From Siphonodentalium dalli (lineage: Eukaryota; Mollusca; Scaphopoda; Gadilida; Siphonodentaliidae): DNA of 64,000 nucleotides. The notes beneath the pieces are model-generated. The model saw only the letters and a program-made list of their open reading frames with translations, ran no database searches and was not told the origin of the DNA. The stretch is taken from the NCBI GenBank assembly GCA_032622095.1, contig CP136062.1:36580918-36644917 (forward strand). The letters run 5' to 3'. A program made the position numbers and the translations under genes. Below are positions 15,156 to 32,976 of this stretch, piece by piece. How positions within the stretch are numbered: the stretch's first letter is position 1; each line of letters begins with the position of its first letter.

Positions 15156-15521
15156 GTAGTGAAACAACAACCATACCAACAACTACAACGACAACAACAA
15201 TGACTACGACGACGACGACCACAACGACCGCCACCACGACCACCACGACGACAACAACAACTACAACGACAACAACAATGACTACTACGACGACGACGAC
15301 CGCCACACCGACCGCCACCACGACCACAACAAACCCGACCACCACAATCACCACAATATGGACGACCGCCAGCACCACAACAACAACTACAACGACAACA
15401 ACAATGACTACTACGACGACGACGACCGCCACACCGACTGCCACCACGACCACAACAAACCCGAACACCACAATCACCACAATATGGACGACCGCCAGCA
15501 CCACAACAGCAACTAAAGCAG
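15156..15521 (+). CDS. Threonine-rich mucin-like exon of a fibrinogen-related gene
   Basis: This is an open stretch of 121 full codons, almost all Thr with scattered Pro, Ala, Ser, Ile and Met, coded by a mix of ACA, ACC, ACG and ACT. It contains a 126-base internal duplication (the IWTTAS block occurs at 15355 and 15481). It is flanked by an acceptor-like TTTTACC...CAACAG and a donor AG-GTATGC. Both ends are phase 1, and the phase-1 end fits the exon at 24691. Such a segment would be an extended, O-glycosylated linker before the fibrinogen domain. Alternatively it is a non-coding ACN microsatellite; the phase match and uninterrupted frame favour an exon. Confidence 0.45.
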
Positions 15522-15949
15522 GTATGCATACGAATAACCAGATTTAAACTGTAATTAAACTAATGACTCCCTTTACACTAGCTATAGATTTTTGTTATTC
15601 TGTTTTTATCGACATCGTGTAGTGACATACTTGCAGATGATATGTACTCTTCGCCAAAGGAAATTCCGTCGTGTCTAGGCCTAGGCGCTCCCAACTACAT
15701 TGGTTGCCGATCGTGGACAAAATTTCGTTCCAAATCGCTACAATTGCTTCCACCGTATGCATGACACCAACTCACTTCAAGACTATTTCACGGAACATAT
15801 CTAGCATTATGTTCCAGGTGGAAACCTTCATTTTTTCGGATCCAGTTTTGCTCACACTGCAGGGAGCAAAGCTTGTCACGGTTAGTGATATAGCTATTCG
15901 CGTTGCCTGTGTCTATAGTGGTATTGGCGAGCACTCTAGCCCGCCCCTC

Positions 15950-16345
15950 CCGATGGGGTCGGCCAGAGTGCCCGCCATGGGCCAGAGTGTCGGGTCCATG
16001 AACCAGAGTGACGGGTCATACTGCGCATGTCCGCTGGGACCCAGCATTCTGACCCATGGGCCAGAGTGGCCCCGAGTGTGGGGTTTGGCTGGCATTCTGA
16101 CCCACCCCACTCGGTCGGGGCCATTCTGGCACATGGGCCAGAGTGTCCACGAGCGAGGGGTTTGGCCGGCACTCTGACCCACCCCCTGGATCGGGGTTAC
16201 TCAGATTGTCCCCGAGCGAGGGGTGGGTGGGAGTGGCAGCCAACCCCCCCCCCCCCGCTCGAGGCCACTCTGGCCAGGGGGTGGGCCAGAGTGCCGACGA
16301 GCGAGGGGTGGGCCAGTGAGCCGGCCCATGGCTTGTCGGTCCAGT
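15950..16345. repeat. GC-rich CCAGAGTG repeat block, copy 1
   Basis: The phrases GGGCCAGAGTG, GAGCGAGGGGT and GGCCCATGGG recur irregularly every 40-60 bases, with a C run near 16246-16257. The block is far richer in GC than its flanks. Long reading frames across it exist on both strands, as expected for a short repeat, and are not taken as genes. Confidence 0.85.
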
Positions 16346-16419
16346 GGTTGTGATAGATTCCAAAGGTGAGCGCTTCGAAGGGGTTTTGACAGAAAAGAGC
16401 ATAATTTACTAATTTATCG

Positions 16420-16510
16420 TTTTTTTTCTCGGATTCTAATGGCAGTGTGGTAAGTGAGGAGCGTTCCCCTTTGCGGACACACTGAACTTAGAATAATAAC
16501 CGAGAAAAAA
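16420..16510. repeat. Fold-back element, copy 1
   Basis: TTTTTTTCTCGGATTCTAAT on the left pairs imperfectly with TTAGAATAATAACCGAGAAA on the right. An inner CAGTGTG/CACACTG pair and a GC-rich loop lie between them. Confidence 0.75.
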
Positions 16511-16771
16511 GGCATTAGTAGATTGTTTTACTTTACGAGTGCATTTTAATAAAAGCGAAAGTCATTGACTTCTCGGAGTCAAATCGGTGTTCTATTCGTA
16601 GAAATATGATGTTTTTGACAGAAAAGAAACACACTTGATTTGACGTTCGAGAAAAATGGTAGAAAAACACAATGACGTCGTCAACGACGCCCGCGCATCC
16701 CATATAATTGATCCTCTAAGATTTTACCGTTATTACATGCGTATATTGTAACGTCATTAACTTTATCGTCA

Positions 16772-30002: not shown

Positions 30003-31740
30003 TTGCAGGTCCACCAGGTTGACTCACGGAATATATACCGTCTGAGAAAATATAAACATGACTTAGCCTTACAGTGGGCCTCAGTTATTTTAGATCAACC
30101 CAACAAATTCTGGGATCATCTCATAAATTTGGGACCGCGGCGAAAGCGTAAAGTTGCAAATGTGTGTTATAATGACGGTGTTACAATAAACACTGATCCA
30201 AATCATGTGTTACGGAAATGGCAGACTGATTTCGCGGATATGTTCAAATTTCGAGATGACGACTATTTCGACAATGATTTCAGAGGGAGCATTATGGCCG
30301 AGAAAGCACGCATGAAGTATTCGTATTCACAGGACTCTATATGGACATTCTTAACCATTCTATAACCCACGAAGAAGTAGTGTGTGTTTTGAATCGTGCG
30401 AAATCTGGAAAAATTCCTGGCTTTGACCAAATACCCAACAAGCTGCTGAAACCAAATGCATATGTGTCCATTCTTCGTAAACTATTCGAACTTTCATTCA
30501 ATCATAGTGTTATCACAACAGAGTGGAGACGTGCTATCATCGTGCCCCTTCCAAAAGACTCAGAAATGGACTGTAGAGTACAACTGAACTATCGAAGCGT
30601 CAGCCTTCATCGGTAGCAGCCAAGTTATACAGTGTGGTCCTAAATACTCGACTTTCAGAATTTCTTGATGTTAGTGATATTCTTGTTGATGAACAGAGTG
30701 GATTCAGGAAGGGGAGATCTTGTCTGGAACATGTATGTGGATTGTTGAGTTTAACACGTTCACGAAAATCTATATTTGTGGCATTCGTTGACACGAGTTA
30801 CGCTTTTGATTGCATTGATATGAATCTACTAGGGTATAAACTTATGGAAACTGGTGTCCACGGAAATTTTCTAGCAGTGGTAAAGGAACTCTACATTCAG
30901 ACTGAGTCTTGTGTCTGATTGGGTTATACACTTTCTGACTTGTTCCCGTGCCGTAATGGTGTGGTTCATGAAATAGTCTTTGTCAATCACTTTTTTCCTC
31001 ATTATGGGAACGATCTGGCGCGGAATATTAAAGTTCTCAGCAGGAGAGTGGACATTGGAGATAGGAACATTGGAATACTGGTATATGCTGATAATATTGC
31101 ATTTTTGCCTGGAAATGATCGAGATCTCCGTGTCCAATTCTCGACGTCATGGATGGTTTTTGTCGAAAAAGGAGACTAAGTTATTCTCTCTTTGTCAACA
31201 AATCCACGCGTATGATAATCAACTGATTGTAGATTTAATCATTTGTAAGAAACACCTTAATGATAAAACCAGGATTAATGGTTGAGTGATGTAGAAATAC
31301 TCAGGAAGCTCAGACTGTATAAAGATATTAAATGTAATTATAACACCAAACTGTATGTAAATATTTCTAACATTTCGAGACATGAACTTTCTGTAATGGC
31401 ACAGTTAAGATGTGGAATATTACCATTACGTGTTGAAACCGGCAGGTGGAAGAGAGAGCATTTAGATGAATGGTGTTTTGAATGTGTGTTTTGAATGTGT
31501 GTTTTGAATGTGTGTTTTGAATGTGTGTTTTTAAAGTGTGTTTTGAATGTGTGTTTTGAATGTGTGTTTTGAATGTGTGTTTTGAATGCGTGTTTTGAAT
31601 GTGTGTTTTGAATGTGTGTTTTGAATGTGTGTTTTGAATGTGTGTTTTGAATGTGTGTTTTGAATGTGTGTTTTGCGATAGGAACATTGCTGATGATGAA
31701 CTCCATTTCATTTTTTCAATGACTGCAGAGTTGACTTCTT
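30003..31740 (+). mobile_element. 5'-truncated, dead LINE (Jockey/CR1-like) reverse transcriptase
   Basis: Successive frames carry LINE RT motifs in order: AKSGKIPGFDQIPNKLLK (30399), NYRSVSL, DEQSGFRKGRSCLEHV (30690), VAFVDTSYAFDCID (30777), VYADNIAFL (31081), and the C-terminal line LRCGILPLRVETGRW (31408). The catalytic YADD is YADN here. There are at least four frame changes, and the endonuclease is missing. After an expanded minisatellite the C-terminal frame resumes with RNIADDELHFIF. It is non-autonomous and old. The exact clade needs a phylogeny. Confidence 0.85.
31474..31675. repeat. 13-bp minisatellite inside the LINE frame
   Basis: About 15 copies of TGTTTTGAATGTG in near-perfect register, with one variant copy (TTTTTAAAGTGTG). 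The unit is not a multiple of three, so it scrambles the frame between the LINE segments ending DEWCFEC and starting RNIADDELHF. Confidence 0.95.
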
Positions 31741-32169
31741 CGCTAAGATATATTTCTGGATAAATGGTGTCAATGACTAACTTTCCAAGTCAGACACCTA
31801 AATTTGTACACAAACCATTCGAGAGCTGTACCAATCCATAGTATCCACACCACGCAATGTAATTTAATGTAAATATTGAACTTAAAGTTACGTATAGGTC
31901 ATAACGGCCCGGTGTATTGGACATGTAACATAACATTTGTAAGCATATGTATTATGATTATATGCAGGTCACTATAATAAAATATATTTTATTATATTCA
32001 ATTCTATCAATGAATTGACCTCAAAAACTTTCCAGTTGATCGTTTTTTTGTATCGGACAACGCCAGATGACCTCAAACCAAATTCAGACAGAACAATGTA
32101 ATTTGCAGCATAGTTGGAATGTTCACGAAACCAACTAACGCAGTTGGAAATACTTTCTTTATAGCCAAT

Positions 32170-32352
32170 TCAAATTCTAATAACAGATTGAAAAATGTTT
32201 CAGCAGAATAGTCATTAAGACGATCGATCTGTTTTCTTTTATTCAACAAATCATTAATTACGGCTTCTATTTTGACAATAACCTGTGAACCAGATGATTT
32301 CTCCAACGATGATAATATTACCAGCATCTCTTTTTTCAGCAGCTCAATGGAA
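32170..32352 (-). pseudogene. Possible coding fragment, family uncertain
   Basis: The - strand frame with ELLKKEMLVILSSLEKSSG and RLNDYSAETFFNLLLEFEL is helical and charged. It has an acceptor-like TTCGCAG upstream and a weak GTATTT donor after AIKK. It distantly recalls the sensor (NIT-type) region of receptor guanylate cyclases, but the likeness is too weak to name it. It lies in the FReD intron on the opposite strand. Confidence 0.15.
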
Positions 32353-32879
32353 GCACCTGCGAATAATTTTGTTTTCGATATTTATAATTTTCGGCTGTGA
32401 TATGTGTCAAATTTATTCGCAAAACAATCGGCAGCAAAGAAACATGTTCCAACTCCATGCACCATGGTTATCACAACCTGTCAAACTTAAATTAGATTCT
32501 TAGATTTGCACCAATTATGAAAAAATAAAAATAGGGTTATGTATGTCAGAAGCAATTTTATACTACGTCCATGGCAAAATTATCAACAACACAATTTAAA
32601 ACTTTTCTTCAATTTCCATTTGACTTCATATACTCGAATTTCTCAATCCCACAGCTGCCACCGATGTAATGGCCCTTTAATATAGACTTTAACTCTCCTA
32701 AATGGCTTCTGTCTTTAGTACACTATCTTATTTCTTCTCCTCGTTCTGTATAACCTCTGGATCGTTCCCACAATATATGTATGTACCTCTCGCTCTTCGT
32801 CTTTCTCGCCTAACTTTCTGTCGACACAAGAGGCCAACACCAATCCACATCCCTCATTCGTCGTTTGTTACATTTGCAG

Positions 32880-32976
32880 GTGATTCAGAGACGGGTTGAT
32901 GGGTCCGAAAATTTTACCAGAGATTGGATGGATTATGCGCACGGCTTCGGTGACAAAACGCGGGAATTCTGGTTGG
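32880..32976 (+). CDS. Fibrinogen-related protein, second fibrinogen-domain exon
   Basis: The exon is 97 bases: 32 codons plus one base, running from [16 protein letters not shown] through [14 protein letters not shown] to the first base of the next Gly codon. This is the conserved FBG segment W-T-V-I-Q-R-R-x-D-G-S-x-x-F-x-R-x-W-x-x-Y-x-x-G-F-G-x-x-x-x-E-F-W-L-G. The acceptor is GTTACATTTGCAG and the donor GTAAGA. It starts in phase 0, as the exon at 24691 requires, and ends in phase 1 at the WLG position where many FReD genes have an intron. No stop or frameshift interrupts it. Later exons carrying the calcium site and the last two Cys were not found in this window. Confidence 0.85.

Follow-up and report, generated by a model that had tools for sequence, protein, structure and literature searches.

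Exon Structure of an FBG Gene Extending beyond the Window

The window, a 64-kb stretch of DNA (G000:C2:36580918-36644917) within a 2.2-Gb genome, carries two exons of a fibrinogen (FBG) domain gene and a Thr-rich open block. In agreement with a preliminary description of this DNA, both FBG exons have GT-AG ends and are joined by matching 0-to-0 phases, and the Thr-rich block ends in phase 1; it is in phase 1 at its other end as well. The same description had counted three exons and put the introns at 8 to 9 kb. The gene is larger, comprising six or more coding exons in addition to the Thr-rich block, which together span 121.6 kb and are separated by introns of 8 to 46 kb (8.0, 29.2, 8.1, 45.8, and 29.6 kb, in order). 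The features are listed below in window coordinates, with chromosomal positions for exons outside it.

C2:36568124-36568253 (window -12793 to -12664), + strand: exon 1, coding part, predicted signal peptide; placed by homology to paralog exons
C2:36576272-36576427 (window -4645 to -4490), + strand: exon 2, helical segment, phase 1-1; placed by paralog homology
15156-15521, + strand: candidate exon, Thr-rich (122 aa), phase 1-1; located in the 29-kb intron that separates exon 2 from FBG exon A
24691-24800, + strand: FBG exon A, N-terminal part of the domain with the first disulfide Cys pair, phase 1-0
32880-32976, + strand: FBG exon B, phase 0-1
C2:36659669-36659833 (window 78752-78916), + strand: FBG exon C, phase 1-1; outside the window
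C2:36689442-36689683 (window 108525-108766), + strand: FBG exon D, entered in phase 1 and carrying the stop codon; outside the window

All introns are GT-AG, the junction phases agree (1, 1, 0, 1, 1), and the reading frame is uninterrupted from ATG to stop, with AATAAA ~10 bases past the stop codon. The predicted protein has 299 aa without the Thr-rich block and 421 aa with it. Immediately 5' of the ATG lies an acceptor-like tttcag, which suggests an additional 5' UTR exon before exon 1. Scanning the 64-kb window against Rfam returned zero matches. Within the introns, retroelement-like frames were recognized by eye at 19118-21446, where Pfam gave no match, and a reverse transcriptase match just under the cut-off was recorded at 30000-30918.

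Exons 1 and 2 were detected by comparing three paralogs over the DNA 5' of FBG exon A, followed by a genome search. In all three, this DNA contains two conserved exons, one for a signal peptide, which ends in phase 1, and one of 1-1 phase for a helical, coiled-coil-like segment. Blast matched neither of these 5' exons in the window or in the 60 kb downstream; the whole-genome search placed them 12.8 and 4.6 kb 5' of the window, on the + strand and in order, both open and with the same donors as in the paralogs.

A Four-Exon FBG Domain Lacking Its Second Disulfide

FBG exon A is bounded by the acceptor ttccag and the donor gtaagt, and exon B by tttgcag and gtaaga. Against the window, a small FBG profile matched exon B with E=1.9e-13 and exon A, taken alone, with E=0.0077; it gave no other significant match there, and the remaining FBG exons are absent inside the window. 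By sequence comparison the exon A match is nonetheless not a chance one, since it shares 40 to 52% identity with paralogous exons and its length of 110 nt recurs in six of the seven paralogs from which this exon was extracted. The missing FBG exons, which the preliminary description expected downstream, were both found there as exons C and D, in phase and on the same strand, 46 and 76 kb 3' of exon B and past the window end; the alternative that the locus holds a gene fragment is thereby excluded. The C-D intron also contains a decayed, incomplete copy of the last part of FBG exon C (window coordinates 105089-105154).

Once joined, the FBG exons matched Pfam Fibrinogen_C (PF00147) with E=6.5e-60 over profile positions 12-220 of 221; the query protein carried one surplus Gly where exons 1 and 2 meet, which is outside the FBG domain. 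The solved structures closest to the FBG head were those of FIBCD1, ficolins, tenascins, and tachylectin 5A. The first FBG Cys pair is kept and encoded in exon A. Exon D lacks the two Cys of the second disulfide pair, which the D exons of nine paralogs retain; the residues of this pair by the ligand pocket read NNCAAFYRGAWWYRNCH in FIBCD1 versus TSAAKFKGGWWYNNGH in the window gene. Membership in the FBG family rests on the whole profile and not on the two-disulfide feature. In ficolins and tachylectin 5A this disulfide adjoins the acetyl-binding pocket, and because of this position its loss may have reduced or altered ligand binding.

The N Terminus Carries a Predicted Leader and a Helical Segment

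Read from its sequence, exon 1 encodes a hydrophobic leader, and homologs of both exon 1 and exon 2 occur in all five paralogs examined. Where the five paralogs have Cys-Cys in exon 1, the window gene has Trp-Cys, one N-terminal cysteine having been lost. Exon 2 is rich in Gln, Glu, Lys, and Leu with a local 3-4-3 hydrophobic spacing judged by eye, and a simple, crude heptad shuffle test gave P=0.28; we refer to the coiled coil as putative. The modeled protein contains no IgSF domain (Fibrinogen_C was the sole Pfam match), nor any Gly-X-Y repeats or collagen-like stem. The locus had been interpreted earlier as a secreted lectin with a stalk. Of this reading the FBG gene with a predicted signal peptide stands, whereas the exon that the family carries 5' of the FBG domain is helical and lies behind the signal-peptide exon.

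A Thr-Rich Block with the Codon Pattern of a Translated Tract

The Thr-rich block consists of ~2.2 copies of a 42-aa (126-bp) repeat. Across 15156-15521 the Thr frame alone is open on the + strand, each of the other two + frames being interrupted by three stops. Over 121 codons, nonmodal bases number 17, 18, and 79 at codon positions 1, 2, and 3, respectively, and base entropy is 1.87 bits at the third position versus 0.77 and 0.84 at the others. A single repeat unit displays the same pattern (7, 7, and 27 nonmodal bases), so that third-position variability does not merely reflect copied repeats. Control Thr-frame tracts from intergenic DNA near a paralog were, by comparison, almost pure (ACA)n. 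Using scoring weights drawn up from general knowledge, the donor of the block is strong, ranking in the top 0.8% of GT sites over the first 24.7 kb, and the acceptor scores poorly, being matched by 12% of background AG sites.

Taken together, the codon pattern, the strong donor, and the 1-1 phase favor a real exon, and we consider it fairly probable that the block, as a gained or optional exon, is spliced into the FBG gene. Phase by itself carries little weight here. The preliminary description was right that a block ending in phase 1 suits FBG exon A, but exon 2 likewise has a phase-1 end, so that the gene is in frame without the block; the phase match is weak evidence for the exon.

The same observation lends itself to the main competing explanation, namely that the locus encodes the same coiled-coil FBG gene and that the Thr-rich block, as a repeat or a dead exon within a 29-kb intron, never enters the mRNA, leaving a protein of 299 aa and no stalk. 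Besides the frame, which holds with or without the block, this explanation draws on the weak acceptor, on the absence of any counterpart in the same intron of the four paralogs checked (4/4), and on the uniqueness of the sequence, as a genome-wide protein search returned nothing resembling the Thr repeat unit beyond the window gene. It does not account for a codon-position pattern that a translated Thr tract would be expected to show and that differs from the pattern of nearby (ACA)n microsatellites, nor for the strong donor, and both phases would fit by chance in only about 1 in 9 cases. We regard exclusion from the mRNA as a serious possibility, though one that probably does not hold.

If the block is indeed spliced in, its Thr-rich tandem repeats make it a plausible candidate for a mucin-like, long O-glycosylated stalk, judged from composition.

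The Window Gene Belongs to a Split-FBG Clade and Is Constrained over Its Combined FBG Exons

FBG matches in the genome number at least 150, and in most of them a single exon encodes the FBG domain. A smaller clade has the domain split at the same places as the window gene; it is clustered on C1 (10.5-12.0 Mb) and on C7 (187.8-188.2 Mb), and further members lie at other sites. Nine paralogs share the FBG exon split, the splice sites, and the phases. Exon B measures 97 nt in eight of the nine (for the ninth, the script took a longer start), and exon C measures 165 nt in all eight paralogs from which it was extracted. The window gene falls inside this clade with support of 94/98, on its longest branch (0.40 vs 0.011-0.24 for the paralogs).

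Pairwise dN/dS of the window gene against six paralogs was determined with our own script for the Nei-Gojobori method. For FBG exons A-D combined, values ranged from 0.21 to 0.61. Exons B and C were the most constrained (0.16-0.62), and exon D mostly gave 0.3 to 0.8, being saturated against one paralog. Exon A gave 0.9 to 3.7, above 1 against most paralogs, on only 36 codons; because of these values, part of the FBG head may be evolving under relaxed constraint or have changed adaptively. Among the copies compared, losses confined to the window gene are both binding-site disulfide cysteines and the one N-terminal cysteine.

The long branch, the lost disulfide cysteines, and the elevated exon A ratios would all be expected of a decaying copy. 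However, all six homologous exons keep an open frame and canonical splice sites, the stop is normal and followed by a polyA signal, and exons B and C retain their low dN/dS, making it improbable that the window gene is a pseudogene. Slimmer still is the chance that the Thr-rich block, coding-like and without a counterpart in the FBG paralogs, is an exon of a separate mucin-like gene nested on the same strand, as its phases suit the FBG gene and no second Thr-rich, mucin-like exon was found on the + strand within the window's first 26 kb.

Several other loci were recorded during the genome searches. At C4:85.90-86.11 Mb, several FBG exon B copies carry one TAG each and nearby D exons are open, perhaps a duplicated pseudogene set. 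The signal-peptide and helical-exon cassette also occurs at C5:229.64 Mb, C8:42.16 Mb, and C9:19.9-24.4 Mb; at one locus each on C8 and C9, the 8 kb downstream of it showed no FBG exon. The cassette may be common to other head domains; that it leads to C-type lectin heads on C8 and C9 was not supported, one exon after the C8 cassette bearing a weak likeness to the start of a C-type lectin (Lectin_C E=0.09) and the joined exons giving nothing. On C7 (77.30-78.82 Mb), consecutive Hox-type homeobox exons share one strand; a Lox5-like exon with KLTGP and a Post2-like exon are among them, and they assign the genome to Lophotrochozoa. A search for molluscan haemocyanin, run with no working control, was negative.

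Relationship to Known FReD Proteins and Proposed Function

Proteins combining a signal peptide, a coiled coil, and an FBG domain are a known lophotrochozoan architecture (PMC8878817), and coiled-coil FReDs, classed as FreDC2, have been proposed to form multimers (PMC9835746). The window gene resembles lophotrochozoan FreDC2 (PMC9835746, PMC8878817) in its signal peptide, presumed coiled coil, C-terminal FBG domain, and large paralogous expansion. It differs in the possible Thr-rich exon between stem and head, in distributing the FBG domain over four exons with long introns, and in the loss of the second disulfide. Thr-rich N-terminal stretches are described in rotifer FReDs (PMC8878817), and rotifer FReDs with low-complexity N-terminal regions share with the window gene predicted secretion, a C-terminal FBG domain, and, occasionally, such a stretch. 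Unlike in rotifers, the Thr stretch here would be a separate 1-1 exon after the helical exon, missing in the four paralogs checked. Snail FREPs pair IgSF with FBG (PMC7588048); the FBG head and membership in an expanded invertebrate family are alike, whereas FREPs carry one or two IgSF domains before FBG and the modeled protein has none. Ficolins, although among the best structure matches together with FIBCD1 and tachylectin 5A, have a collagen-like part that was not recognized in the window gene.

We therefore place the gene within a kind already known, as both coiled coils and Thr-rich stretches have been described before in secreted FBG proteins. Judged from its sequence, it is likely an intact gene for a secreted, lectin-like FReD protein of the coiled-coil-plus-FBG type, probably with a 122-residue Thr-rich spacer. 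The protein would begin with a signal peptide and a short Cys-containing N terminus, followed by a helical oligomerizing segment, the Thr-rich spacer (probably, and perhaps optionally), and a single C-terminal fibrinogen C domain assembled from four exons. Chains would be joined by the helical segment and the N-terminal cysteines, and the FBG heads may recognize glycans or acetylated groups presented by microbes or other surfaces, which we infer would serve an immune role. If spliced in, the Thr-rich spacer, presumably O-glycosylated, would stiffen and lengthen the arm between stem and head. More tentatively, a symmetric and possibly alternatively spliced Thr cassette, gained between stem and FBG head by one gene of a lectin family expanded in tandem, together with the loss of the pocket disulfide, could have produced a mucin-type arm with changed specificity, an outcome we consider rather unlikely.

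As a lectin gene, the window gene is unsurprising, since its family has very many members in this genome. It does provide a worked case in which a short-exon, 121-kb invertebrate lectin gene was assembled through paralog comparison, and it offers a concrete test of whether lectin families gain stalks via phase-1 exon insertion.
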